A stretch of 33,545 bases of DNA from a virus. The stretch covers positions 1 to 33,545 of IMG/VR virus record IMGVR_UViG_3300000956_000068. The stretch is one strand, 5' to 3'. The notes under the pieces were generated by a model. It saw only the letters and a program-made list of their open reading frames with translations, was not told where the DNA came from and searched no databases. This document shows positions 776 through 22,410 of the stretch, one piece after another. Within the stretch, counting starts at the first letter, position 1. The number at the start of each line of letters is the position of its first letter. A program made the position numbers and the translations under genes.

Positions 776-1489
776 TTAAGACATTGCCTTTTGAATCAAT
801 TTGCCTAAGTGCGGCTCTTCTAACGCCGCCAGATTTCCAAACCTGTCACGCGCTAAATAGTCGGCGCCTCCTTTTGTGTGTATTGCTGTCGTCTTACCGA
901 TGCCTGGAACGTGGGCTTCGGCTACGTAAAGAATCTGGTCAAATCTGTGCGGAACGGAAATATTTAACGCTTGACCTGGAAAGTAAGGTTGTGACTGATA
1001 CTGCACTTCAACGGTAAACGCTCCGCCTTGCTGAACTATCGTTTTGCCTGCTTCGGCTTTCATCATTTTGCAATTAACAATGATATGCTTTTGTGGCATG
1101 AAGTAAAGCGCATCGAACCATTCCATACAATGCTTGGCCATTTCGCCGTAAGCTTTCTTGCCGTGCTTCTCGCGGTCAAGCTCTCTAGCTAAGATCGTTT
1201 CAGCCAGCTGCGAGCCGGAGTCAATCGCTAACGTGTCGAAGTTCGATGCTTCCCGCGACTTAAGGAACCACTCAAAGAACTCTTCAATTCGGGCCGGGGT
1301 ATAGGCATCGAATGTGGGCAAGTTGGAGTCACGCATAGACCCTAGACCCGCTTCAGTCGCTAGCAATACCGGGCGCGGGCAAGTGTTCAGCATCGGCGTC
1401 TTACCGGTTCCAGGTTGACCGTAAATAATCGCTTTAACGCCAAACCGGTGTGCTAGCTCTTTAGCGGGCCTGAGGCTATTGATGTTCAT
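776..1489 (-). CDS. RecA-fold ATPase, Sak4-like recombinase (AAA_24 type)
   Basis: The 237-residue protein has a Walker A motif GQPGTGKT at residues 24-31 and a Walker B-like stretch FDTLAIDS near residue 85. This matches the small single-domain RecA-like ATPases of phages, often called Sak4-type single-strand annealing proteins. Those act with a partner SSB, which here is probably the DUF669-like gene just downstream. The start codon overlaps the stop of the upstream gene (ATGA), and GGAGG lies upstream, so translation is probably coupled. Assignment to the ATPase family is firm. The recombinase role is inferred from family and neighbour. Confidence 0.8.
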   Translation of the reverse strand: MNINSLRPAKELAHRFGVKAIIYGQPGTGKTPMLNTCPRPVLLATEAGLGSMRDSNLPTFDAYTPARIEEFFEWFLKSREASNFDTLAIDSGSQLAETILARELDREKHGKKAYGEMAKHCMEWFDALYFMPQKHIIVNCKMMKAEAGKTIVQQGGAFTVEVQYQSQPYFPGQALNISVPHRFDQILYVAEAHVPGIGKTTAIHTKGGADYLARDRFGNLAALEEPHLGKLIQKAMS

Positions 1490-5236: not shown

Positions 5237-7582
5237 GTGAGCAAGTTTCACAACGTACCCGCAGAAATGCGGCTGTATGCGCAATGGTGCGTCTGGCGTT
5301 ACGAAGAAGAAGAAGGAACGGGTAAGCTGACGAAAGTTCCGTATAGCCCTCGTACGGCTAAGCTGATGTCCGTTACGGACCCGTCAACCTGGGCGACGTT
5401 CGACGAAGCTGTTAGCGCGGTAACTAATACGGACTGGTATGCTGGTATTGGGTTTGTGTTATCGGAGCAAGACCCGTTTTGCTTTATCGACCTTGACGAT
5501 CCCTACGCGCTAAATGCGAACGGCACGCCGAAGCACAAAGACCCGAAACAAATCCTAGATCGGCAAATAACGATCTACAACGAGTTCCAAAGCTATGCAG
5601 AGCGTTCGCCGTCTGGCAAAGGTCTGCACATCATCGTTCGCGGAGCGGTCAAAAGCGGCCGTCGTAGATCGGCTGTAGAGCTATACTCCAGTGAGCGTTA
5701 CTTGACGATGACCGGGGAGGTATACCGAAACCTTCCCATAGTCGATTATCACGAACTAGCAAATTCCCTTTGGAAACAAATGGGCGAAGGTAAACAAGCG
5801 ATAGCGTTTTACGCTGGGCTTGAACAGGCGAAGTATTCTGACGAAGAAGTAATAAGGATAGCGTCAAATGCTGCAAACAACGAAAAGTTCAACGAACTGT
5901 TCTATAACGGTAACTGGCAGCGTTATTACCCGTCGCAATCTGAAGCCGATTTTGCTCTTGTTGATATTTTGGCGTTCTATTCTGAAAATCGTCAACAAGT
6001 TCAACGGCTCTTTCTGGCGTCGAAGCTGGGTCAGCGTGAGAAGAGTCGTGCTCAATACCGAATCAATTACATGCTGGCGCGTTGCTTCGATAGAATGTTA
6101 CCACCAGTGGACATTGAGTTTTTACAAAACCGGCTTGCTGAAGCGGTCGCGTCTGCTAAGGCTAAAGCGTCCGGTGAACCGGCATCCGTCTATGTGGCGA
6201 CGGCTCCGACACTGAAGACGGATCAAACACCATACACCGCTCCACCGGGTTTAGTAGGTGAGATAGCCCGGTTTATATACGATGCCGCTCCGCGCCCGGT
6301 TCCCGAAATCGCGCTAGCGGGAGCCATTGGGTTAGTGTCTGGTATTGTGGGCAGAAGTTATAACGTTAGCGGCACTGGACTTAATCAGTATGTTTTGTTA
6401 CTTGCTCCAACTGGAACGGGAAAAGAAGCGATTGCGTCAGGAATTGATAAACTTATGTCGACGGTTACAAGAACCGTACCCTCGGCTTCCGAGTTTATTG
6501 GACCGGCTGAAATCAGTTCTGGTCAAGCGCTCACAAAATACATGGCGAAAACATCGGCATCTTTTGTATCGACTGTTGGCGAGTTTGGACTAGCACTATC
6601 CGAAATGTGCGCGCAGCATGCGCCTCCACACTATATAGCGTTAAGGCGTATGTTTCTTGACCTGTACAACAAGAGCGGCGAAGGGCAGTTTCTTCGCCCT
6701 CGCATCTACAGCGATAAGGAAAAGAACACCGAAACGATTCAGTCGCCAGCGTTTACGTTACTAGGCGAATCAACGCCAGAACGTTTTTATGAAACGCTTC
6801 ACGAAAGTATGATTAGCGAAGGCTTACTTCCGCGCTTTACGATCATTGAATACAAGGGCGAACGACCACCGCTACGAGAAGATCATACTAAGGTTCAACC
6901 CGGTTTTCAGTTAATTGAACAGCTAGGTTCGTTATGTGCTCATAGCCTGATGTTGAACAATCAGCAAAAGGCTATCCATATTCAAATGACGCCGGAGGCC
7001 GATAAGCTGTTTAAACAGTTTGACAAGTATTGCGATCAACAAATAAATAGTAGCGACCGTGAGGTACGAAAACATTTATGGAATAGAGCGCACGTCAAAG
7101 CAATGAAGTTAGCGGGGATCGTTGCAGTCGGTTGCGATCCTTACCAACCCACAATAAACGAAGTAATGGCGCAATGGGCTCTTGGTATTGTTGTTCATGA
7201 CGCTAGAACATTGTTGGCCAAGTTCGACGCCGGGGAGATTGGAATAGATAACGACGAAACGCGTCAGCTAGTGAAGCTGATAGCTATGATTAAAGATTAT
7301 TTGTTGCGGCCCTGGAGCGAATTGGAAGGTTACAAAGTCGGTACGTCGTTACTGCACTCGGAGAAGATCATACCATACAGCTATCTTCACAAGCGGCTAT
7401 CGTCTTCAGCTGAATTTAAGAAAGACAAGCAAGGTGCGTCAATGGCGTTAAAGAGAGCATTGAAGACCCTTGCAGAACGCGGGGATATTCAGGAAGTATC
7501 CCGTGCAACGTTAACTCAGCAATATAAGACGCATGCCGTATGCTATATGGTGGCCGTACCGAGGGTATTCGGACTAGAGTGA
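5237..7582 (+). CDS. Primase-polymerase fused to DUF3987-type helicase/ATPase
   Basis: The 781-residue replication protein has two parts. Residues 1-170 form an archaeo-eukaryotic primase-like PrimPol domain, with PFCFIDLDD carrying the metal-binding D85 and D87, SPSGKGLH at 124-131, and VELYSSERYLTMTG around 147-160. Residues about 340-780 form a DUF3987-type P-loop helicase domain with Walker A LLLAPTGTGKEA near residue 390. Such fusions prime and unwind DNA at phage replication forks. The start is GTG with no strong ribosome site, 8 bases after the HTH gene, and translation may be coupled. The next in-frame ATG (5267) would remove part of the conserved N-terminal VPAEM segment. Its 3' end overlaps an antisense gene. 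Confidence 0.85.
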   Translation: MSKFHNVPAEMRLYAQWCVWRYEEEEGTGKLTKVPYSPRTAKLMSVTDPSTWATFDEAVSAVTNTDWYAGIGFVLSEQDPFCFIDLDDPYALNANGTPKHKDPKQILDRQITIYNEFQSYAERSPSGKGLHIIVRGAVKSGRRRSAVELYSSERYLTMTGEVYRNLPIVDYHELANSLWKQMGEGKQAIAFYAGLEQAKYSDEEVIRIASNAANNEKFNELFYNGNWQRYYPSQSEADFALVDILAFYSENRQQVQRLFLASKLGQREKSRAQYRINYMLARCFDRMLPPVDIEFLQNRLAEAVASAKAKASGEPASVYVATAPTLKTDQTPYTAPPGLVGEIARFIYDAAPRPVPEIALAGAIGLVSGIVGRSYNVSGTGLNQYVLLLAPTGTGKEAIASGIDKLMSTVTRTVPSASEFIGPAEISSGQALTKYMAKTSASFVSTVGEFGLALSEMCAQHAPPHYIALRRMFLDLYNKSGEGQFLRPRIYSDKEKNTETIQSPAFTLLGESTPERFYETLHESMISEGLLPRFTIIEYKGERPPLREDHTKVQPGFQLIEQLGSLCAHSLMLNNQQKAIHIQMTPEADKLFKQFDKYCDQQINSSDREVRKHLWNRAHVKAMKLAGIVAVGCDPYQPTINEVMAQWALGIVVHDARTLLAKFDAGEIGIDNDETRQLVKLIAMIKDYLLRPWSELEGYKVGTSLLHSEKIIPYSYLHKRLSSSAEFKKDKQGASMALKRALKTLAERGDIQEVSRATLTQQYKTHAVCYMVAVPRVFGLE

Positions 7583-8874: not shown

Positions 8875-10364
8875 TAGTTTCGGGTTCCTTCTTCGATCAT
8901 GCGAAGCGACACTTTAGCGCGTGTCGCCGCCACGTAGCAAAGGTTATCTTCTTGCTTCAGCTGCCAGGGCTGACGGGCATACACCGAAGGACACTGACTG
9001 CGATTCAGCCAATACACCGTACGCGCCTCCAAACCCTTTGACTTGTGAATCGTAGCTAACGTTGTCGCGACTTTAGCTTCGTTAAATAGATCCTTAAGAA
9101 CGTCAATCAGAGCTTTGACGGTGCGGTTGTTTTCTCCAAGGCCACTCATCAATGCGCGGATTGCGTCGATACGGTCGCAAATCGCTTCAACTTTGCCTTC
9201 GTCGTTCTTTTCCAATGCCTTTTTAACTTCGCGTTCACGGTAAGCCGCGAGCTTCGTTTCAAGTTCGTCAATCGTCCATGCTTCCATTGATTCGATGAAT
9301 TCAATCAGTTGCTTGCCCACACTATCGCGGCCCATGATACGGACGGGAATGCGGGCCTTCAGCATACGCATTGCTAACGTGATTAACGGGCGAGTCGTGC
9401 GGCATACAACAAGGTCGTTTTGCTCGAAATCTTCCAGCAGCCAGTCTTCGCCCAGTTCAGCTACGCCGCCGATATCTTCACGGGCCGGGTTCGCTTCAAT
9501 GTGACTGACCCATTGACGGGCATATTCAACGACGCGAGGCGCGCAACGGTAGGAGATAGACAGCGGCATTTCGACACACTTGAACTCGTTGGCGATCAGT
9601 TCGAGCGAATCGCTATCGGCGCCGCGAAAGCCGTATATAGCTTGCGCCGGGTCGCCTACCGCGATCAGTCGGCCCGTCATCTTGCCGTTAAAGCCCGTCA
9701 GAATCTTGCGCAGAATCGCGCGCTGAATCGCGTTCGTGTCCTGCGCTTCGTCAACAAGCACGTTGTTGTAACGGCGAAGGGTCAGGTTCTTTAAGATCGG
9801 GAGGTAAAGGATATCGTCCCAATCGATCATCGGGGACTCGTTTGATTCCTTCAGCAAGAACTGCGCGAGTTCGATGGCGCGGGCATTCGTGCAGCTGTCG
9901 TTCGGCAACTCCAGGTCGTGACGGTCAATCAGCGTTTGCCAAGCGTTCGGAACGTTCGGCATTAAGCCTTCGCATTCAACGCCAGCGTTACGGGCCAGCG
10001 ACACCAGCTTGCAGACAAAGGGGCCGTAGTTGTGGGCATCGTCGGCGTTGAACGTACCCTTGACCAGCTTTTGCAGCTTGTTGCCGGTAACGTCGTCAGG
10101 GCTGCTCAGGCCCTTGAAATCGAGCACCGTGCGCATGCAAAGCGAGTGAAACGTCATGGCTTTGAGGCCGGCTTCTTTCAGCTCCTTCGCGATGGCCGCG
10201 TTGAACGCCAGGATGACGCTATAACCGCGCAGGAGGCCGAAGACGTGCTTCAGCGTGGTCGACTTGCCGGAACCAGCCACGGCCACAATGATGAGGTTGT
10301 AGGCCGTCTCCGTGACGGTCTTGTAAATCGCTTGCTGGTAGACGCTGGGGACTTTGTTCGACAT
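8874..10364 (-). CDS. UvrD/Rep-family superfamily 1 DNA helicase
   Basis: The 496-residue protein shows the SF1A motif series in order: Walker A AVAGSGKSTT (28-37), motif II LVDEAQDTNAIQR, motif III GDPAQAIYGFRGAD, a SYRC motif IV element, motif V ATIHKSKGLEA and motif VI CYVAATRAK. This is a 3'-5' DNA translocase/helicase acting in replication or recombination. It is shorter than cellular UvrD (~720) because the accessory 1B/2B regions are reduced, as often in phage. A sigma70-like promoter (10394-10421) lies just upstream, and GGAG precedes the start at 10364. Codon use is GC-rich. Confidence 0.9.
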   Translation of the reverse strand: MSNKVPSVYQQAIYKTVTETAYNLIIVAVAGSGKSTTLKHVFGLLRGYSVILAFNAAIAKELKEAGLKAMTFHSLCMRTVLDFKGLSSPDDVTGNKLQKLVKGTFNADDAHNYGPFVCKLVSLARNAGVECEGLMPNVPNAWQTLIDRHDLELPNDSCTNARAIELAQFLLKESNESPMIDWDDILYLPILKNLTLRRYNNVLVDEAQDTNAIQRAILRKILTGFNGKMTGRLIAVGDPAQAIYGFRGADSDSLELIANEFKCVEMPLSISYRCAPRVVEYARQWVSHIEANPAREDIGGVAELGEDWLLEDFEQNDLVVCRTTRPLITLAMRMLKARIPVRIMGRDSVGKQLIEFIESMEAWTIDELETKLAAYREREVKKALEKNDEGKVEAICDRIDAIRALMSGLGENNRTVKALIDVLKDLFNEAKVATTLATIHKSKGLEARTVYWLNRSQCPSVYARQPWQLKQEDNLCYVAATRAKVSLRMIEEGTRN

Positions 10365-10393
10365 TTGACGCGCTCCGCTTGGTAAGTGCTGCC

Positions 10394-10421
10394 AGTATAC
10401 GCAGACGCTCTAACGCTGCAA
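10394..10421 (-). promoter_or_regulatory. Sigma70-like promoter for the helicase gene
   Basis: On the minus strand TTGCAG (complement of 10416-10421) is followed after 16 bases by TATACT (complement of 10394-10399), about 30 bases upstream of the helicase ATG. Both hexamers are good matches. A shared 18-bp element lies immediately upstream. Confidence 0.6.
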
Positions 10422-10433
10422 GCACTTTAACGC

Positions 10434-10451
10434 TTAACGTCATGAGTACTT
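10434..10451. repeat. Shared promoter-proximal element, copy 1
   Basis: TTAACGTCATGAGTACTT matches the copy at 12110-12127 at 16 of 18 positions; only the central dinucleotide differs. It lies upstream of the helicase promoter and touches a GTACT-7-AGTAC inverted repeat (10446-10462). It may be a regulator-binding site. Confidence 0.5.
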
Positions 10452-10516
10452 ATACGTAGTACCCATAGTTCCCCAGCGTCGTCTTTTGGGGCCGTTGCAA
10501 CACTGACGTTAAGCAA

Positions 10517-10547
10517 CCTCAGAAGACGTTATACGCGCCTTCTGAGG
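10517..10547 (-). terminator. Hairpin downstream of the 10560-12059 gene set
   Basis: CCTCAGAAG (10517-10525) and CTTCTGAGG (10539-10547) are perfect 9-bp arms around a 13-base loop, directly after the stop of the 10560-10757 gene on the minus strand. The following bases (TTGCTTAACG) are not a clean T-run, so this is a weak terminator or a 3'-end stabilising hairpin. Confidence 0.5.
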
Positions 10548-10559
10548 TAGCGTCAACTG

Positions 10560-10757
10560 TCAGCCGTTCAGAAGTTCGATTTTGATATGGTTACCGACCT
10601 CCAGGTTCCACAAGCCGATTTGAGAATGTAAGCGTTCGTTCAAAGCTTCTGTGTCTAAGACTTGGTCGCTCATGTCACACTCTACCGTAAGAACGGCACT
10701 TTCAATGTCGTTGCCGTACATGCCGTCTGTCAGGCTCATTTTCACTTGTCGTTTCAT
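10560..10757 (-). CDS. Small hypothetical protein
   Basis: The 65-residue acidic product begins MKRQVKMSLTDGMYGNDIES and has alternating hydrophobic residues suggesting a small beta-rich fold (VLTVECDM, NHIKIELLNG). It is not recognised. The start overlaps the stop of the upstream gene (ATGA). It is last in a minus-strand set of five small genes and is followed by a hairpin. Confidence 0.65.
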   Translation of the reverse strand: MKRQVKMSLTDGMYGNDIESAVLTVECDMSDQVLDTEALNERLHSQIGLWNLEVGNHIKIELLNG

Positions 10758-10948
10758 GGCTGTTTACTCTCAACTGGTGTTGCGTTGCTGACGGTAACCA
10801 CGACTCTACAGCCATCGCTAAACGTCAGTTCTATTTTGTGGTTTGTCTTCTGTTCGGCCTGGAAATCAGCTCCCCAACGTTGCAGTTCGTCTAACTGTCG
10901 CGCCAGGGTATCGCAGATCCGAACCGCGTTACTAACAGGCTTTGGCAT
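10754..10948 (-). CDS. Small hypothetical protein
   Basis: The 64-residue product MPKPVSNAVRICDTLARQLD... has an N-terminal helical half and a C-terminal segment KIELTFSDGCRVVVTVSNA that looks beta-rich. No family is recognised. AGAGGTAACATTAA before the ATG is a good ribosome site. The stop overlaps the start of the next gene, so the pair is probably translationally coupled. Confidence 0.65.
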   Translation of the reverse strand: MPKPVSNAVRICDTLARQLDELQRWGADFQAEQKTNHKIELTFSDGCRVVVTVSNATPVESKQP

Positions 10949-11879: not shown

Positions 11880-12059
11880 TTACTTCGCTTGTGCTTCGCG
11901 GCGGACCAGTTCGAACACTGCATTCACCTGCTTCATGGTGACGCTGTAGTTCTGCGTGATGCCCAGCGCTCCGAAGCCTTCGCCGATCATCTTCTTGACG
12001 GCCTGGATCTGCTGAGGGCTCATGGTCGCCAAGCGACGGTTCATTTCGGCTTTTGTCAT
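11880..12059 (-). CDS. Small helical protein, first gene of a minus-strand operon
   Basis: The 59-residue product starts MTKAEMNRRLATMSPQQIQ and has a possible small helix-turn-helix-like arrangement (IQAVKKMIGEGFGALGITQN), but the match is weak. GGGAGTGAAGATC before the ATG at 12059 decides the start over a longer frame to 12131 that would cover the promoter. As first gene after a well-formed promoter it is probably abundant early in infection. Function unknown. Confidence 0.65.
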   Translation of the reverse strand: MTKAEMNRRLATMSPQQIQAVKKMIGEGFGALGITQNYSVTMKQVNAVFELVRREAQAK

Positions 12060-12090
12060 GATCTTCACTCCCGTTTGACTACGTGACGCT

Positions 12091-12119
12091 ATAGTAACTA
12101 CGTCAAACTTTAACGTCAT
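12091..12119 (-). promoter_or_regulatory. Promoter of the 12059-to-10560 operon with overlapping inverted repeat
   Basis: On the minus strand ATGACG (complement of 12114-12119) and TACTAT (complement of 12091-12096) are spaced by 17 bases, about 32 bases ahead of the 12059 ATG. A 7-bp inverted repeat GTTTGAC / GTCAAAC (12073-12079 and 12102-12108) brackets the -10, so a bound protein would block or modulate initiation. Confidence 0.55.
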
Positions 12120-12127
12120 CGGTACTT
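12110..12127. repeat. Shared promoter-proximal element, copy 2
   Basis: TTAACGTCATCGGTACTT is the second copy of the element at 10434-10451. Here it contains the -35 region of the minus-strand promoter. A CCACG-tatt-CGTGG palindrome (12128-12141) follows on the far side. Confidence 0.5.
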
Positions 12128-12141
12128 CCACGTATTCGTGG

Positions 12142-12519
12142 CTTCAGCCCACACTAACGGCTATCGGTTGACGCTGCACAGGGCCTTAGAGCTAAGTCCT
12201 TGATAAATCAGTATAAATGGAATTTAAATGGCCTAAGTCGTTGATCCGGAAGGATTTAAATGAAATAGTTCGTAAATGGGTGGGTACCTTAGTACATCAA
12301 ACTAAGAACCCGTTAACACAAACAATACAAACAATCAACATTAACATTACAAAGAAATAGAACTCTTATATAAAGAGAATATATTATATATACTGAAGAG
12401 AATCAAGGCTTTGGACAGTTTATAGAGTCGAGTATTTGTAAACGGCTTTAGTATGTTGAAATTCTAATTTTTATATGTTATTGATGCGTTGGCATTTAAT
12501 TAATGGAGTTGTTTTTAAT
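12142..12519. other. AT-rich divergent non-coding region, candidate replication origin and promoter region
   Basis: About 380 bases lie between divergent genes with no supportable coding frame. Composition is strongly AT-rich compared with the roughly 50% GC surroundings. Features are two imperfect direct repeats (12192-12262), a 41-base stretch free of G on the plus strand (12313-12353), a small CTCTT..AAGAG inverted repeat, and an alternating AT run ending in TATACT (12389-12394). The last could be a -10, with TTATAT 17 bases upstream as a poor -35. Iteron-like repeats beside an easily melted segment fit an origin. The same region must also carry plus-strand promoters. Both roles are inferred. 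Confidence 0.5.
12192..12262 (+). repeat. Imperfect direct repeats (iteron-like)
   Basis: CTAAGTCCTTGAT (12192-12204) recurs as CTAAGTCGTTGAT (12233-12245). GGAATTTAAATG (12219-12230) recurs as GGATTTAAATG (12252-12262). Together they make two copies of a composite unit of about 30-40 bases at the edge of the AT-rich region. Confidence 0.6.
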
Positions 12520-12818: not shown

Positions 12819-12956
12819 GTGACGAAAGCTGAAGCGTTGGTAGGCGTGGTTCTTGGCATTTTGCTAGCGCTCAGCGTCGGCGAGGTTGCCGAAGCATTCA
12901 CGTCGAAGGTTGCGAGTGTTCTGGCGTCTATTCCGGGAGTAATCAACAATGAGTAA
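12819..12956 (+). CDS. Tiny single-TM membrane protein, GTG start
   Basis: The 45-residue product MTKAEALVGVVLGILLALSV... has one hydrophobic helix at about residues 7-20 and a short tail ending GVINNE. AGGAGTGTGGGCA precedes a GTG start, and the stop lies 8 bases inside the next gene, which fits a genuine coupled small gene. Function unknown. Small phage membrane peptides often affect host envelope or exclusion, but nothing here shows that. Confidence 0.55.
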   Translation: MTKAEALVGVVLGILLALSVGEVAEAFTSKVASVLASIPGVINNE

Positions 12957-13557
12957 TGGCGAATTTCAAACTTGCCAAGCTTGTACAACGCCTATGGCGT
13001 GTCGTGACGTGGCGACTTGCCAGCGGCAATACAGAGCGGACACGATAGCCCGCATGTCAGCACGGGAGAACGTCGAAAGCTTGCTAGGTAAGCGTGTAGG
13101 CGTCAATAGCGGACGTTTCAAGGGTCAGCGCGGTTTGGTGACGCACGAGAACAGCAACGTGTTGAAAGTGCAGTTCGACAAGACACAGCAAACAGCGCTT
13201 TTGCAGCGTGTTGAAGTCATGCGTGAAGAAGCGTTCGACCAGCTGTACGGCAAGCCGACTACGCTTCGCGTTCACGGCTATGACAATACGCTTGCGAAAA
13301 TGACGGCTTCGATTAAGCGCGTTGATGAACTGCGTGGTAAGCGCAAAGAGCCGAAGAAGGTTGTAGCGTTGGAATGGAAGTTACATCCGACGCCGACGTA
13401 TCGCTGGGGTGTAATTCCGATCAATTTGCGCCTGGAAGACAACGTACGCTGTTTAGTTATCGAACAGCAACGTTGGTTCAAGTCGAAGCGCAGAGCGGTA
13501 GCGTTTGCGCGTTTTAATTACACGACATATGTGATTGCCGACTATCAAGAGCGGTAA
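12949..13557 (+). CDS. Cys-rich N-terminus plus KOW-like domain, hypothetical
   Basis: The 202-residue protein begins with CQACTTPMACRDVATCQRQY (five Cys in about 20 residues), a likely zinc knuckle. GKRVGVNSGRFKGQRGLVTH follows at about 47-66, a KOW/SH3-like segment typical of RNA- or ribosome/RNAP-associated proteins. The C-terminal half has TYRWGVIPINLRL and several aromatic/basic residues. Together these suggest a nucleic-acid-binding accessory protein. CGGGAGTAATCAACA precedes the ATG. The gene is followed after 5 bases by the TOPRIM gene. Confidence 0.7.
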   Translation: MSNGEFQTCQACTTPMACRDVATCQRQYRADTIARMSARENVESLLGKRVGVNSGRFKGQRGLVTHENSNVLKVQFDKTQQTALLQRVEVMREEAFDQLYGKPTTLRVHGYDNTLAKMTASIKRVDELRGKRKEPKKVVALEWKLHPTPTYRWGVIPINLRLEDNVRCLVIEQQRWFKSKRRAVAFARFNYTTYVIADYQER

Positions 13558-13562
13558 GCGTC

Positions 13563-14459
13563 ATGCCGTTAGAACAATTCATAGAAAAGCGCTTTAACCG
13601 CAAGTCTAGGGCCGTCATTCTCCAGGCGAACGAAATCATTGCTGAGTATCAAGCGGCTGGCTTTACGCTAACGCTACGCCAGCTCTATTACCAGTTCGTT
13701 GCGCGTGGTTTGCTGGCCAACAAGCAAACCAACTACGACAATCTCGGTAACGTCATTAGCGACGCGCGACTCGCTGGGTTGATCGATTGGGACGCCATCG
13801 AGGACCGAACACGGTTCCTGCGTGGTCATACGACGTATGATGACCCGGCTGACGCTATAGAGCGACTGCATGAGCGTTATCGCATCGATATGTGGCAGGG
13901 CCAGAAGCGCCGGGTTGAAGTGTGGATCGAAAAGGACGCGCTCATAGGCGTCGTACAGGCGGTTTGCAACAAATGGGATGTAAACTACTTCGCCTGTCGC
14001 GGGTACGCGTCCCAGAGCGAGCTATACGCAGCTGGGAAGCGAATTCAGGCGAGACGCTACTACGGAAACCAGGACAGTATCGTACTTCACTTCGGCGACC
14101 ATGATCCGTCTGGCATCGATATGACGCGAGACAACGAAGAACGGCTTAGTATGTTTGCGGGTCGTCGTGTTGAAGTTAAGCGTTTGGCGTTAAACATGGA
14201 TCAGGTTGAAGAGTACAACCCACCACCGAACCCGACAAAGCTCACTGATAGCCGGGCTAACGGCTATATCGACGCTTACGGGATGGAGTCATGGGAACTG
14301 GACGCGTTAGAGCCGAAGGTAATAGCGCAGCTGATTGAAGATAACGTTCAAGAAGAACTTGATTTTGACGTTTGGGACGACCGCGTCAGCCGATTCCAAT
14401 ACGATCAGCGAAAGCTGCAAGAAGCTGTCAAGTTCGTTCAGGGAAACAACGAAGGTTGA
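13563..14459 (+). CDS. TopoVI-A/Spo11-like protein with TOPRIM domain (Mini-A type)
   Basis: The 298-residue protein has LTLRQLYYQFVARG at residues 36-49, matching the RxxYY active-site pattern (Y42/Y43) of the 5Y-CAP domain of TopoVI-A and Spo11. A TOPRIM domain follows, with VEVWIEKDAL (E123) and LHFGDHDPSG (D179, D181) as metal-binding residues. Free-standing short relatives of TopoVI-A without a TopoVI-B partner are known from mobile elements as Mini-A. In cellular enzymes this fold makes double-strand DNA breaks with a covalent tyrosyl link. No B subunit is visible in the window. The exact activity of the phage version is not established. Confidence 0.75.
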   Translation: MPLEQFIEKRFNRKSRAVILQANEIIAEYQAAGFTLTLRQLYYQFVARGLLANKQTNYDNLGNVISDARLAGLIDWDAIEDRTRFLRGHTTYDDPADAIERLHERYRIDMWQGQKRRVEVWIEKDALIGVVQAVCNKWDVNYFACRGYASQSELYAAGKRIQARRYYGNQDSIVLHFGDHDPSGIDMTRDNEERLSMFAGRRVEVKRLALNMDQVEEYNPPPNPTKLTDSRANGYIDAYGMESWELDALEPKVIAQLIEDNVQEELDFDVWDDRVSRFQYDQRKLQEAVKFVQGNNEG

Positions 14460-20737: not shown

Positions 20738-21214
20738 ATGCCAAATCGTTTGCTATTCCTGAGGCCACCGCCGCTGCCGCAGACGGAAGACGAAGAAGAA
20801 CAGCGGAAATACAGGGCTAAAGTCGCGGCGTACCACTACAAGCTGTCCATGGTGATGCTGGCCCTGATCGTGTTTACAGGCTGGGCCTTATCTCCGTTAG
20901 GCTTAGCTCGGGCGCAGAATGTCAAGCCGCAGATTCAAGAGGCGTTAGCGCCGGTCGAAGCTGAAGTTCAACAACTTAAAACGATACTGGCGCAAGTTAC
21001 GACTAATCAGGAGTTAAACGCTAAACGTTTGACGCGCTCGTTATCGAACAGTGTAGCGAGCGAAATGCGGTTTATGCAGGCGAAGCGTTGCAAGCTGTCA
21101 AACGCAGAAGAACAGGAACGTGAACGTCTATGGAACGAAATAGAACGTAAGCAAGACGAGTATCAAGAATTGCGAAACGAACGTTACAACCTTCCGAATT
21201 GCGCGGAGCTATGA
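20738..21214 (+). CDS. Single-TM protein with periplasmic coiled coil, lysis region
   Basis: The 158-residue protein has an acidic/basic N-terminal 33 residues, one hydrophobic helix at about 36-57 (LSMVMLALIVFTGWALSPLG), then a long charged helix (about 75-150) with coiled-coil character. It lies first in the lysis block and its stop overlaps the holin-like gene. A role as antiholin or lysis accessory is possible but inferred only from position and topology. The start follows a GGGGAC-type site. Confidence 0.6.
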   Translation: MPNRLLFLRPPPLPQTEDEEEQRKYRAKVAAYHYKLSMVMLALIVFTGWALSPLGLARAQNVKPQIQEALAPVEAEVQQLKTILAQVTTNQELNAKRLTRSLSNSVASEMRFMQAKRCKLSNAEEQERERLWNEIERKQDEYQELRNERYNLPNCAEL

Positions 21215-21216
21215 CA

Positions 21217-22410
21217 ATGAAATTGCAACTTGTTACTTACTGGCGCGATGCCTGGAAGTTCTGGAGCGTTAAGCTCGCGGCTCTGGGAACTGCGTTAGTA
21301 ACGTTTGCTACGTTATTTCCAGACGCGGCTTTGCAAGCTTGGTTCGCGTTACCGGATGAATTTAAGCAGGTCATTCCGCCGTCTTACGTGCAAGGATTTG
21401 GCGTCGTGTTGATGGCGCTTTCGCTGATTGCTCGAATTATCAAGCAACAAAAGCTGCAAGACGAACTATTGGCGCAAGGTAAGATTGTGCAGACTCCCAG
21501 CAAGCCCGAGGACGGTGCTAGGGACGAACGGCCGCCGTTAGCGATCCTTGCAACTATCTACCTGGGCATTGCGCTTTTGACGTATGGCTTGGCTGCGCAG
21601 GCTGCTGTCAATGTCAACTACGTTTACGAAGTGTATATCAAGCGTGGCGGTACCACGCAGTTTCCGAGCTATCGATCTAGCGACGAAGCAGCAGCGAAGC
21701 TGGCTTGCCGAAATGCGATAGCCCAGAAGGCCGCGAACGAAACGGTTGACGTCACTTACACCTGTACTTCGCCGCAGCTGTTAGGCATTGTCGACTACAC
21801 GGCAACGCCCACAACGTTACCGGCTCCGGTGAACTTTACCGGCGTTCTGAGTTCAACGAACCCTTCAACACAAATTTCGTTAGGGTGGTCAGCAGTTAGC
21901 GGCGCGGCTGCGTATGATATCGAACGGTGCCAGAGTGCAACCTGTACGAATTTTACGCGGCTTAGCTGTTACGTCGGTGTTAACCGTGCTGTCGGATCGC
22001 TCACCCCTGGAACGACATACCGTTTCCGAATTAGAGCGTCACGGGATACAGCGTGTAGCGCGACAGCGGGCAATCTCGGTAGCTGGTCTTCGATTGTTAA
22101 CGTAACGACGCAAGCCAGCGTAGCGTTTATAGCGGTTTTGAATTGGACCTATAGCGATCCTGGCGATCAAGACGGCGTGCCTGTTGAGCGACTTATCCCA
22201 GATGCAGAAGGCTTTCGTATCGTTTACGGTAACAGTCGAGACGCGGCGAATAACCCGATATTCGACAGGACTATTGACATACCGAACCCGGTTGCAAGAA
22301 CGTATATCGTCGAGAACTTAACGCCGGGAACTTGGCATTTCGCCGTGAAGACGTACGGCGGCGGCAACGAAAGCGTGCCGAGTGTGACGCAATTCAAGAC
22401 AATCAGTTGA
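21217..22410 (+). CDS. Holin-like domain fused to two fibronectin type III domains
   Basis: The 397-residue protein begins like phage holins. MKLQLVTYWRDAWKFWSVKL leads into TM1 (about 17-34), a Pro-containing loop with LPDEFKQVIPPSYVQGF, TM2 (about 60-75), then a basic cytoplasmic stretch. A third hydrophobic segment at 106-129 (PPLAILATIYLGIALLTYGL) ends AQAA, resembling a signal anchor. Two FN3 domains follow. The first (about 200-299) has LGWSAVSGAAAYDIERCQ and LTPGTTYRFRIRA. The second (about 303-397) has LTPGTWHFAVKTY. With an N-in topology the FN3 part would be periplasmic. Start at 21217 chosen from GGAG eight bases upstream. Holins normally end near residue 90, so this is an unusual fusion. 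Confidence 0.7.
   Translation: MKLQLVTYWRDAWKFWSVKLAALGTALVTFATLFPDAALQAWFALPDEFKQVIPPSYVQGFGVVLMALSLIARIIKQQKLQDELLAQGKIVQTPSKPEDGARDERPPLAILATIYLGIALLTYGLAAQAAVNVNYVYEVYIKRGGTTQFPSYRSSDEAAAKLACRNAIAQKAANETVDVTYTCTSPQLLGIVDYTATPTTLPAPVNFTGVLSSTNPSTQISLGWSAVSGAAAYDIERCQSATCTNFTRLSCYVGVNRAVGSLTPGTTYRFRIRASRDTACSATAGNLGSWSSIVNVTTQASVAFIAVLNWTYSDPGDQDGVPVERLIPDAEGFRIVYGNSRDAANNPIFDRTIDIPNPVARTYIVENLTPGTWHFAVKTYGGGNESVPSVTQFKTIS

Follow-up and report, generated by a model that had tools for sequence, protein, structure and literature searches.

A phage Mini-A protein with a predicted topoisomerase VI A-subunit fold is an accessory gene in a Septimatrevirus-like lineage

The virus contig that we analysed (the window, 33,545 bases, a fragment with relatives of about 43 kb) encodes a free-standing protein of 298 amino acids that is a member of Mini-A, a small phage and plasmid family that has already been named and whose original description is reportedly that of Takahashi et al. 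in 2020. In the Septimatrevirus-like lineage to which the window belongs, this gene is accessory, being gained and lost with the primase and the genes next to it retained, a pattern that is new here. The predicted structure contains both halves of topoisomerase VI-A, and the residues expected of the active site are conserved throughout the family. A sequence-only reading of the window had proposed a free-standing protein of the Topo VI-A/Spo11 type, and homology, the predicted fold, the residues and the absence of a B subunit all support that proposal.

Family membership and predicted fold

The gene begins with an ATG (Table 1) and its product matches the PHROG family annotated as 'DNA topoisomerase'. 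We assign it to Mini-A because it is homologous both to the protein of Pseudomonas phage NP1 and to a gene deposited as 'Topo Mini-A' on an 8.8-kb archaeal plasmid (two records, E = 4e-24). Mini-A proteins are truncated Top6A homologues found in archaeoviruses and bacteriophages, with NP1 as an example (2021 review, PMC7614492), and they have been described as close to Topo VIII (PMC8185306). The window protein has the features of the family, being a short Topo VI-A-like protein with a winged helix and a TOPRIM domain in its predicted fold, retaining the putative catalytic tyrosine and the TOPRIM acids, and being carried by a virus in which, within the fragment available, no B subunit is encoded. 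The NP1 protein is of the same length, shares the RQLYY, EK, GDHDPSG and WELDAL motifs, and is likewise phage-encoded without a B subunit; however, its gene adjoins Sak4, whereas in the window 12 kb separate the two, and the window represents a Septimatrevirus-like phage in which the gene is accessory. Relatives are encoded by 75 of 50,697 phage records (69 of these cover at least 80% of the query) and by 42 of 72,556 plasmid records. Very small plasmids with few other recognisable genes also carry Mini-A, among them the archaeal P-7H_11 and a 15-kb plasmid of Paenibacillus durus. In Roseobacter phage RDJL Phi 1 (about 9970-10900) the gene is split over two frames, with RQLYY in one and TOPRIM in the other, through either a frameshift or a sequencing error.

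Table 1. Coordinates of the mini-A gene, its predicted domains and residues, and other features of the window
Feature	Position	Strand	Evidence
Sak4-like ssDNA annealing protein, core recombination gene of the phage	776..1489	-	phrog_124, E = 9.9e-36; Pfam AAA_24
Replicative primase/helicase, marker of the Septimatrevirus-like lineage	5237..7582	+	phrog_3022, E = 8e-265; 62-64% identity to relatives
Upstream neighbour called KOW-like	12949..13557	+	Sub-threshold KOW matches
mini-A gene, 298 aa	13563..14459	+	ORF; phrog_6247, E = 1.3e-111; 46% identity over 93% of the query to NP1 Mini-A
Predicted winged-helix (5Y-CAP-like) domain, residues 11-81	13593..13805	+	Match to 1d3y_B; sub-threshold Pfam TP6A_N, residues 17-48
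R39-Q-L-Y42-Y43, with candidate catalytic tyrosine Y43 and R39 at the place of M. mazei R102	13677..13691	+	R39 and Y43 in every residue-bearing row
Predicted TOPRIM domain, residues 115-264	13905..14354	+	VIA alignments
E123, putative first TOPRIM metal ligand	13929..13931	+	178/178 rows; structure alignment
D179-H-D181, TOPRIM DxD	14097..14105	+	Both D in 178/178 rows; M. mazei D254/D256 in FTDGDPW
E245-L-D247, candidate counterpart of the M. mazei E342 clasp (KKAE..AF)	14295..14303	+	E245 in 175/178 rows; pairing from motif only

Comparisons of sequence profiles gave little signal. The Pfam family TP6A_N scored 13.1 bits on the window protein against a cut-off of 26, and neither it nor TOP6A-Spo11_Toprim matched the protein above cut-off; among 119 family members, ten matched TP6A_N (best E = 0.0013) and two matched TOP6A-Spo11_Toprim. 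Alignment of Mini-A with archaeal Topo VI-A in hhalign was not significant (P = 0.02, with column-shuffled decoys scoring higher), the outcome was the same with the plasmid relatives, and profile searches of the PDB with 19 and with 119 members returned no matches. The link of Mini-A to Topo VI-A is suggested by the predicted fold, the order of the motifs and the weak Pfam matches, the sequence profiles by themselves being non-significant.

A structure model computed from 119 sequences (mean pLDDT 94.8, pTM 0.84) has a single PDB match in Foldseek at E ≤ 0.001, the Topo VI-A of M. mazei in its cleavage state (9o0g_C, E = 1.7e-4), and this match extends over the whole chain (294 alignment columns). 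The overall TM-score against 9o0g_C is low (0.33), which a different relative placement of the two domains would explain. An earlier model from 19 sequences (pLDDT 80) produced an unspecific Foldseek list and the deeper model was used in its place; a BFVD fold search yielded no informative match. The winged-helix half, compared in the earlier model, superposes residues 11-81 on residues 71-141 of M. jannaschii Topo VI-A (1d3y_B; Z 8.5, rmsd 2.5, 68 residues), an offset of 60 that therefore places Y43 on residue 103 of 1d3y. For the TOPRIM half the best VIA score is again with 1d3y (Z 12.2, rmsd 2.8 over 138 residues), and the other Z values are 11.6 for 9o0g, 11.4 for MksG, 11.0 for JetD, 10.8 for 2zbk (an intact type II topoisomerase) and 9.7 for Spo11. 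The presence of a winged-helix 5Y-CAP domain had been set beforehand as a test of the sequence-only reading; the domain is found in the predicted structure and matches that of M. jannaschii. By predicted fold and alignment, both halves of the topoisomerase VI A subunit are present, with the candidate catalytic tyrosine in one and the TOPRIM acids in the other. In common with the enzymes of M. mazei and M. jannaschii are the winged helix and TOPRIM, the order of the R...YY and DxD motifs and the whole-chain fold match, but the window protein is about 60-70 residues shorter, is only 11-21% identical, comes without a B subunit, and has WELDAL where the C-terminal motif of Topo VI-A is KKAEQQAF.

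Conservation of the putative active site

Read directly from the protein, the segment LTLRQLYYQFV occupies residues 36-46 and includes R39, Y42 and Y43; both this RxxYY segment and the TOPRIM triad E123/D179/D181 are located where they had been claimed. In a first homologue scan, with search patterns that did not include the catalytic motifs, we obtained 18 full-length distinct relatives, and R39, Y43, E123, K124, D179, D181 and W244-L249 are invariant in these and in the window protein. The set was larger when relatives were drawn from phages, viral contigs and the genomes of bacteria and archaea (169 distinct sequences): none of the 168 sequences that cover R39 and Y43 departs from these residues, none of the 169 lacks E123, D179 or D181, and Y42 is F in four members. 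In this larger scan part of the conservation of GDHDPS and WELDAL comes from the search itself, both motifs having served as patterns; unbiased support for conservation is provided by the pattern scan without them, by phages found with tblastn and by the plasmids. With the plasmid relatives added (about 25-55% identity), the alignment has 178 rows, and R39, Y43, E123, D179 and D181 do not vary in any residue-bearing row, down to about 25% identity. Because these five residues are unchanged across homologues, the motif match is not a chance one. Y43 is the candidate catalytic residue, since Y42 is replaced by F or W overall and Y43 is unchanged.

In the Topo VI-A of M. mazei the catalytic residue is Y106, R102 and E342 form a clasp, and E202, D254 and D256 bind metal (PMC13040014). 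The sequence of that protein at the place of RQLYY is TLRELYY, and E123 of the window protein falls on residue 197 of 1d3y and on E202 of M. mazei (aligned starts 115 = 189 and 115 = 194). Judging from the motif, WELDAL of Mini-A may stand in for the region of E342. Position 245 is Q in the three rows that lack E, and position 247 is always D or E. In a diverged branch of three actinobacterial plasmids (L327, L328 and L330), TQAEA replaces WELDA, with Q at 245 and E at 247; E342Q, at a possibly equivalent place, raises cutting by M. mazei Topo VI (PMC13040014).

Genomic setting and accessory distribution

The B-subunit families PF09239 (Topo-VIb_trans) and PF13589 (HATPase_c_3) are absent from the window and from 49 other Mini-A records, in searches that were positive in the expected control genomes. 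This agrees with the earlier claim that no B subunit lies nearby, and the pairing with a B subunit carrying a GHKL ATPase and a transducer, as in Topo VI, is found in none of the 50 records. A fixed partner gene was not detected either: after exclusion of Mini-A itself and of an antisense ORF-caller artefact, the commonest family within 9 kb occurs at 15 of 169 loci, which is a lower bound, automatic gene calling being poor in GC-rich contigs. In annotated phages Mini-A often lies beside genes of DNA metabolism. It is located between ligase and Sak4 in NP1; in Microbacterium phage Fizzles it follows an exonuclease of the Cas4 family and a recombinase, with a RuvC-like resolvase also adjacent; Brevundimonas phage Delta and Salmonella phage SPN19 both have it next to ThyX; other Mini-A phages have DNA polymerase or reductase genes nearby, and three phages that we read have no recombination or DNA-metabolism gene close to it. 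This pattern, seen without a control set, is suggestive only. The Sak4 of the window co-occurs with Mini-A in six of 49 records at E ≤ 0.001, a count from a single query of a diverse family that we excluded as evidence.

The sequence-only reading had also pointed to two features close to the gene, a KOW-like neighbour and an AT-rich origin candidate. The neighbour does adjoin Mini-A upstream, but its KOW matches (E = 0.013 to 0.06) are under the Pfam cut-off, and it was rejected as a partner, there being no homologue near other Mini-A genes. The AT-richness is likewise real (38% GC at 12001-12500 against about 51%), but this is a divergent intergenic region without iterons, its repeats are short and in two copies only, its promoter matches are not above those of shuffled sequence, and nothing links it to Mini-A; as an origin it was set aside on these results. 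The interval 12180-12480, which may be either a promoter region or an origin, lies upstream of a conserved small ORF (phrog_10287), an ORF that precedes Mini-A in the nearest relative (L028) as well.

The phage lineage was identified by the primase, which has 62-64% identity to its counterparts in Xanthomonas phage Pfeifenkraut and Septimatrevirus phages. The window, Kakheti25 and Pfeifenkraut have a common layout, with an HTH protein and the primase on one strand, Sak4-like or AAA genes on the other, and a variable early region; Pfeifenkraut additionally shares VRR-NUC, lysis, terminase and portal genes. Mini-A is absent from both Kakheti25 and Pfeifenkraut. A search with the primase alone recovered 42 viral contigs of 38 kb or longer, and Mini-A is present in five of them. 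In the tree built from the primase, the window groups with its nearest relative (support 99); these two have Mini-A, whereas the remaining members of the set of eight around them do not, and the presence or absence of Mini-A requires at least five changes of state (on a quick tree with some long branches). The Mini-A tree pairs the window with the same nearest relative. The carriage by five of 42 relatives and the changes of state on the tree indicate that Mini-A is gained and lost independently of the primase.

These results bear on the roles in replication initiation and concatemer handling that had been suggested from the sequence. Mini-A is missing from complete close relatives whose genes for replication, recombination and packaging are the same, and no link was seen between it and either the KOW-like neighbour or the AT-rich region; neither suggestion is borne out. 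It is unlikely that Mini-A is part of the core replication machinery, and the existence of close relatives without it makes core roles in origin firing, in the handling of concatemers and in packaging unlikely too.

Two other ORFs of the window are recorded here. One (21199-22410, + strand, 403 aa) has an unusual pairing of a holin-like N-terminus (phrog_1356, E = 5.9e-22; Pfam DUF7940) with a fibronectin type III domain (E = 1.7e-6). The other (20738-21214, + strand, 158 aa), in the lysis region, has a weak Pfam match below cut-off to the eukaryotic kinetochore protein Spc19 (E = 2.4e-4) that is probably a coiled-coil artefact.

Possible activity and alternative readings

On balance we favour the view that Mini-A is a homodimeric, ATP-independent enzyme that cleaves DNA through a 5'-tyrosyl linkage and is an optional helper of phage recombination or topology. 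The protein would be a compact type IIB topoisomerase A-like enzyme, with Y43 in its winged-helix half and E123, D179 and D181 in its TOPRIM half. By analogy with Topo VI-A and Spo11, two copies would meet on DNA and form two composite active sites, in each of which one subunit supplies the tyrosine and its partner holds the metals; both strands would be cut and the protein joined to the 5' ends, with ATP not needed. SPO11 alone makes double-strand breaks in vitro, stays on the 5' ends and can reseal nicks (PMC11922746), and because it cuts without partners, the missing B subunit is no obstacle to cleavage. Spo11 and Mini-A share the two domains, the catalytic residues and, for the TOPRIM half, the similarity to the Spo11 core complex given above, but Spo11 is a eukaryotic, meiotic protein with Top6BL-type partners, and orthology to Mini-A is unsupported by the tests made. 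With less certainty, Mini-A would act alongside Sak4-type and resolvase-like functions of the phage as a dispensable aid to DNA recombination or topology and, again with less certainty, would take no part in basic replication or packaging; this helper role fits best because of the accessory pattern and the genomic settings. A more specific version is tentative: Mini-A could be a self-sufficient, ATP-independent enzyme of the Spo11 type in phages and plasmids, whose programmed, protein-capped double-strand breaks start recombination together with Sak4-type annealing proteins, gained and lost as an accessory module.

Resealing is where the nearest competing explanation departs from this. An ATP-independent relaxing topoisomerase would relieve supercoils during phage replication or transcription and leave no breaks, and we regard this as somewhat doubtful. 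ATP is not required for DNA relaxation by the Topo VIII of Microscilla marina (PMC7614492), resealed topoisomers are obtained from SPO11 mixtures (PMC11922746), and plasmids also carry Mini-A. However, Topo VIII and Mini-A, although both type IIB enzymes of mobile elements, differ in the B-type ATPase part, which Topo VIII has and which was not found here; a strand-passage ATPase is missing from the 50 Mini-A records, and most close relatives replicate without the gene.

Host DNA cleavage had been the third role suggested from the sequence. The patchy, accessory distribution in a variable region would fit a conflict gene directed against the DNA of the host or of rivals, through which the chromosome of the bacterium or competing replicons would suffer protein-capped breaks, and JetD and MksG, relatives of the TOPRIM fold, are defence nucleases. 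We consider this unlikely, as Mini-A is also found in temperate or plasmid-like elements (Listeria phage LWP01, archaeal and bacterial plasmids) and we saw nothing by which the DNA of the element itself would be protected.

JetD and MksG, the nucleases of Wadjet and MksBEFG, also suggest a tyrosine-independent TOPRIM nuclease in which the winged-helix tyrosine is not the nucleophile, given that the TOPRIM half is as close to them as to Topo VI-A. This is distinctly improbable: JetD and MksG belong to SMC-like complexes and the 5Y-CAP-like domain of MksG offers no candidate tyrosine (PMC10123090), whereas Y43 is present in all residue-bearing rows of Mini-A, and the defence-nuclease profiles of PADLOC gave a weak AbiEi match (E = 0.017) and no match to a model of the JetD/MksG type. 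A DNA-binding regulator or structural protein that kept the fold and lost catalysis, in line with the 'DNA binding protein' label of Mini-A in several phage records, is very improbable with the arginine, the tyrosine and the three acidic metal ligands unchanged to such low identity.

Mini-A has been named since 2020 and no activity is reported in the papers that we found, nor did we find biochemistry for the family, for which the window gives a clean, small representative. That close relatives equipped alike for replication, recombination and packaging manage without the gene narrows its role, and the defined sets of relatives with and without the gene make its function testable by deletion or transfer within one phage lineage. 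If Mini-A makes protein-capped breaks, it would be a virus-borne counterpart of meiotic break formation, and if it cuts DNA alone, it would provide a minimal model for the cleavage core of Topo VI-A and Spo11.
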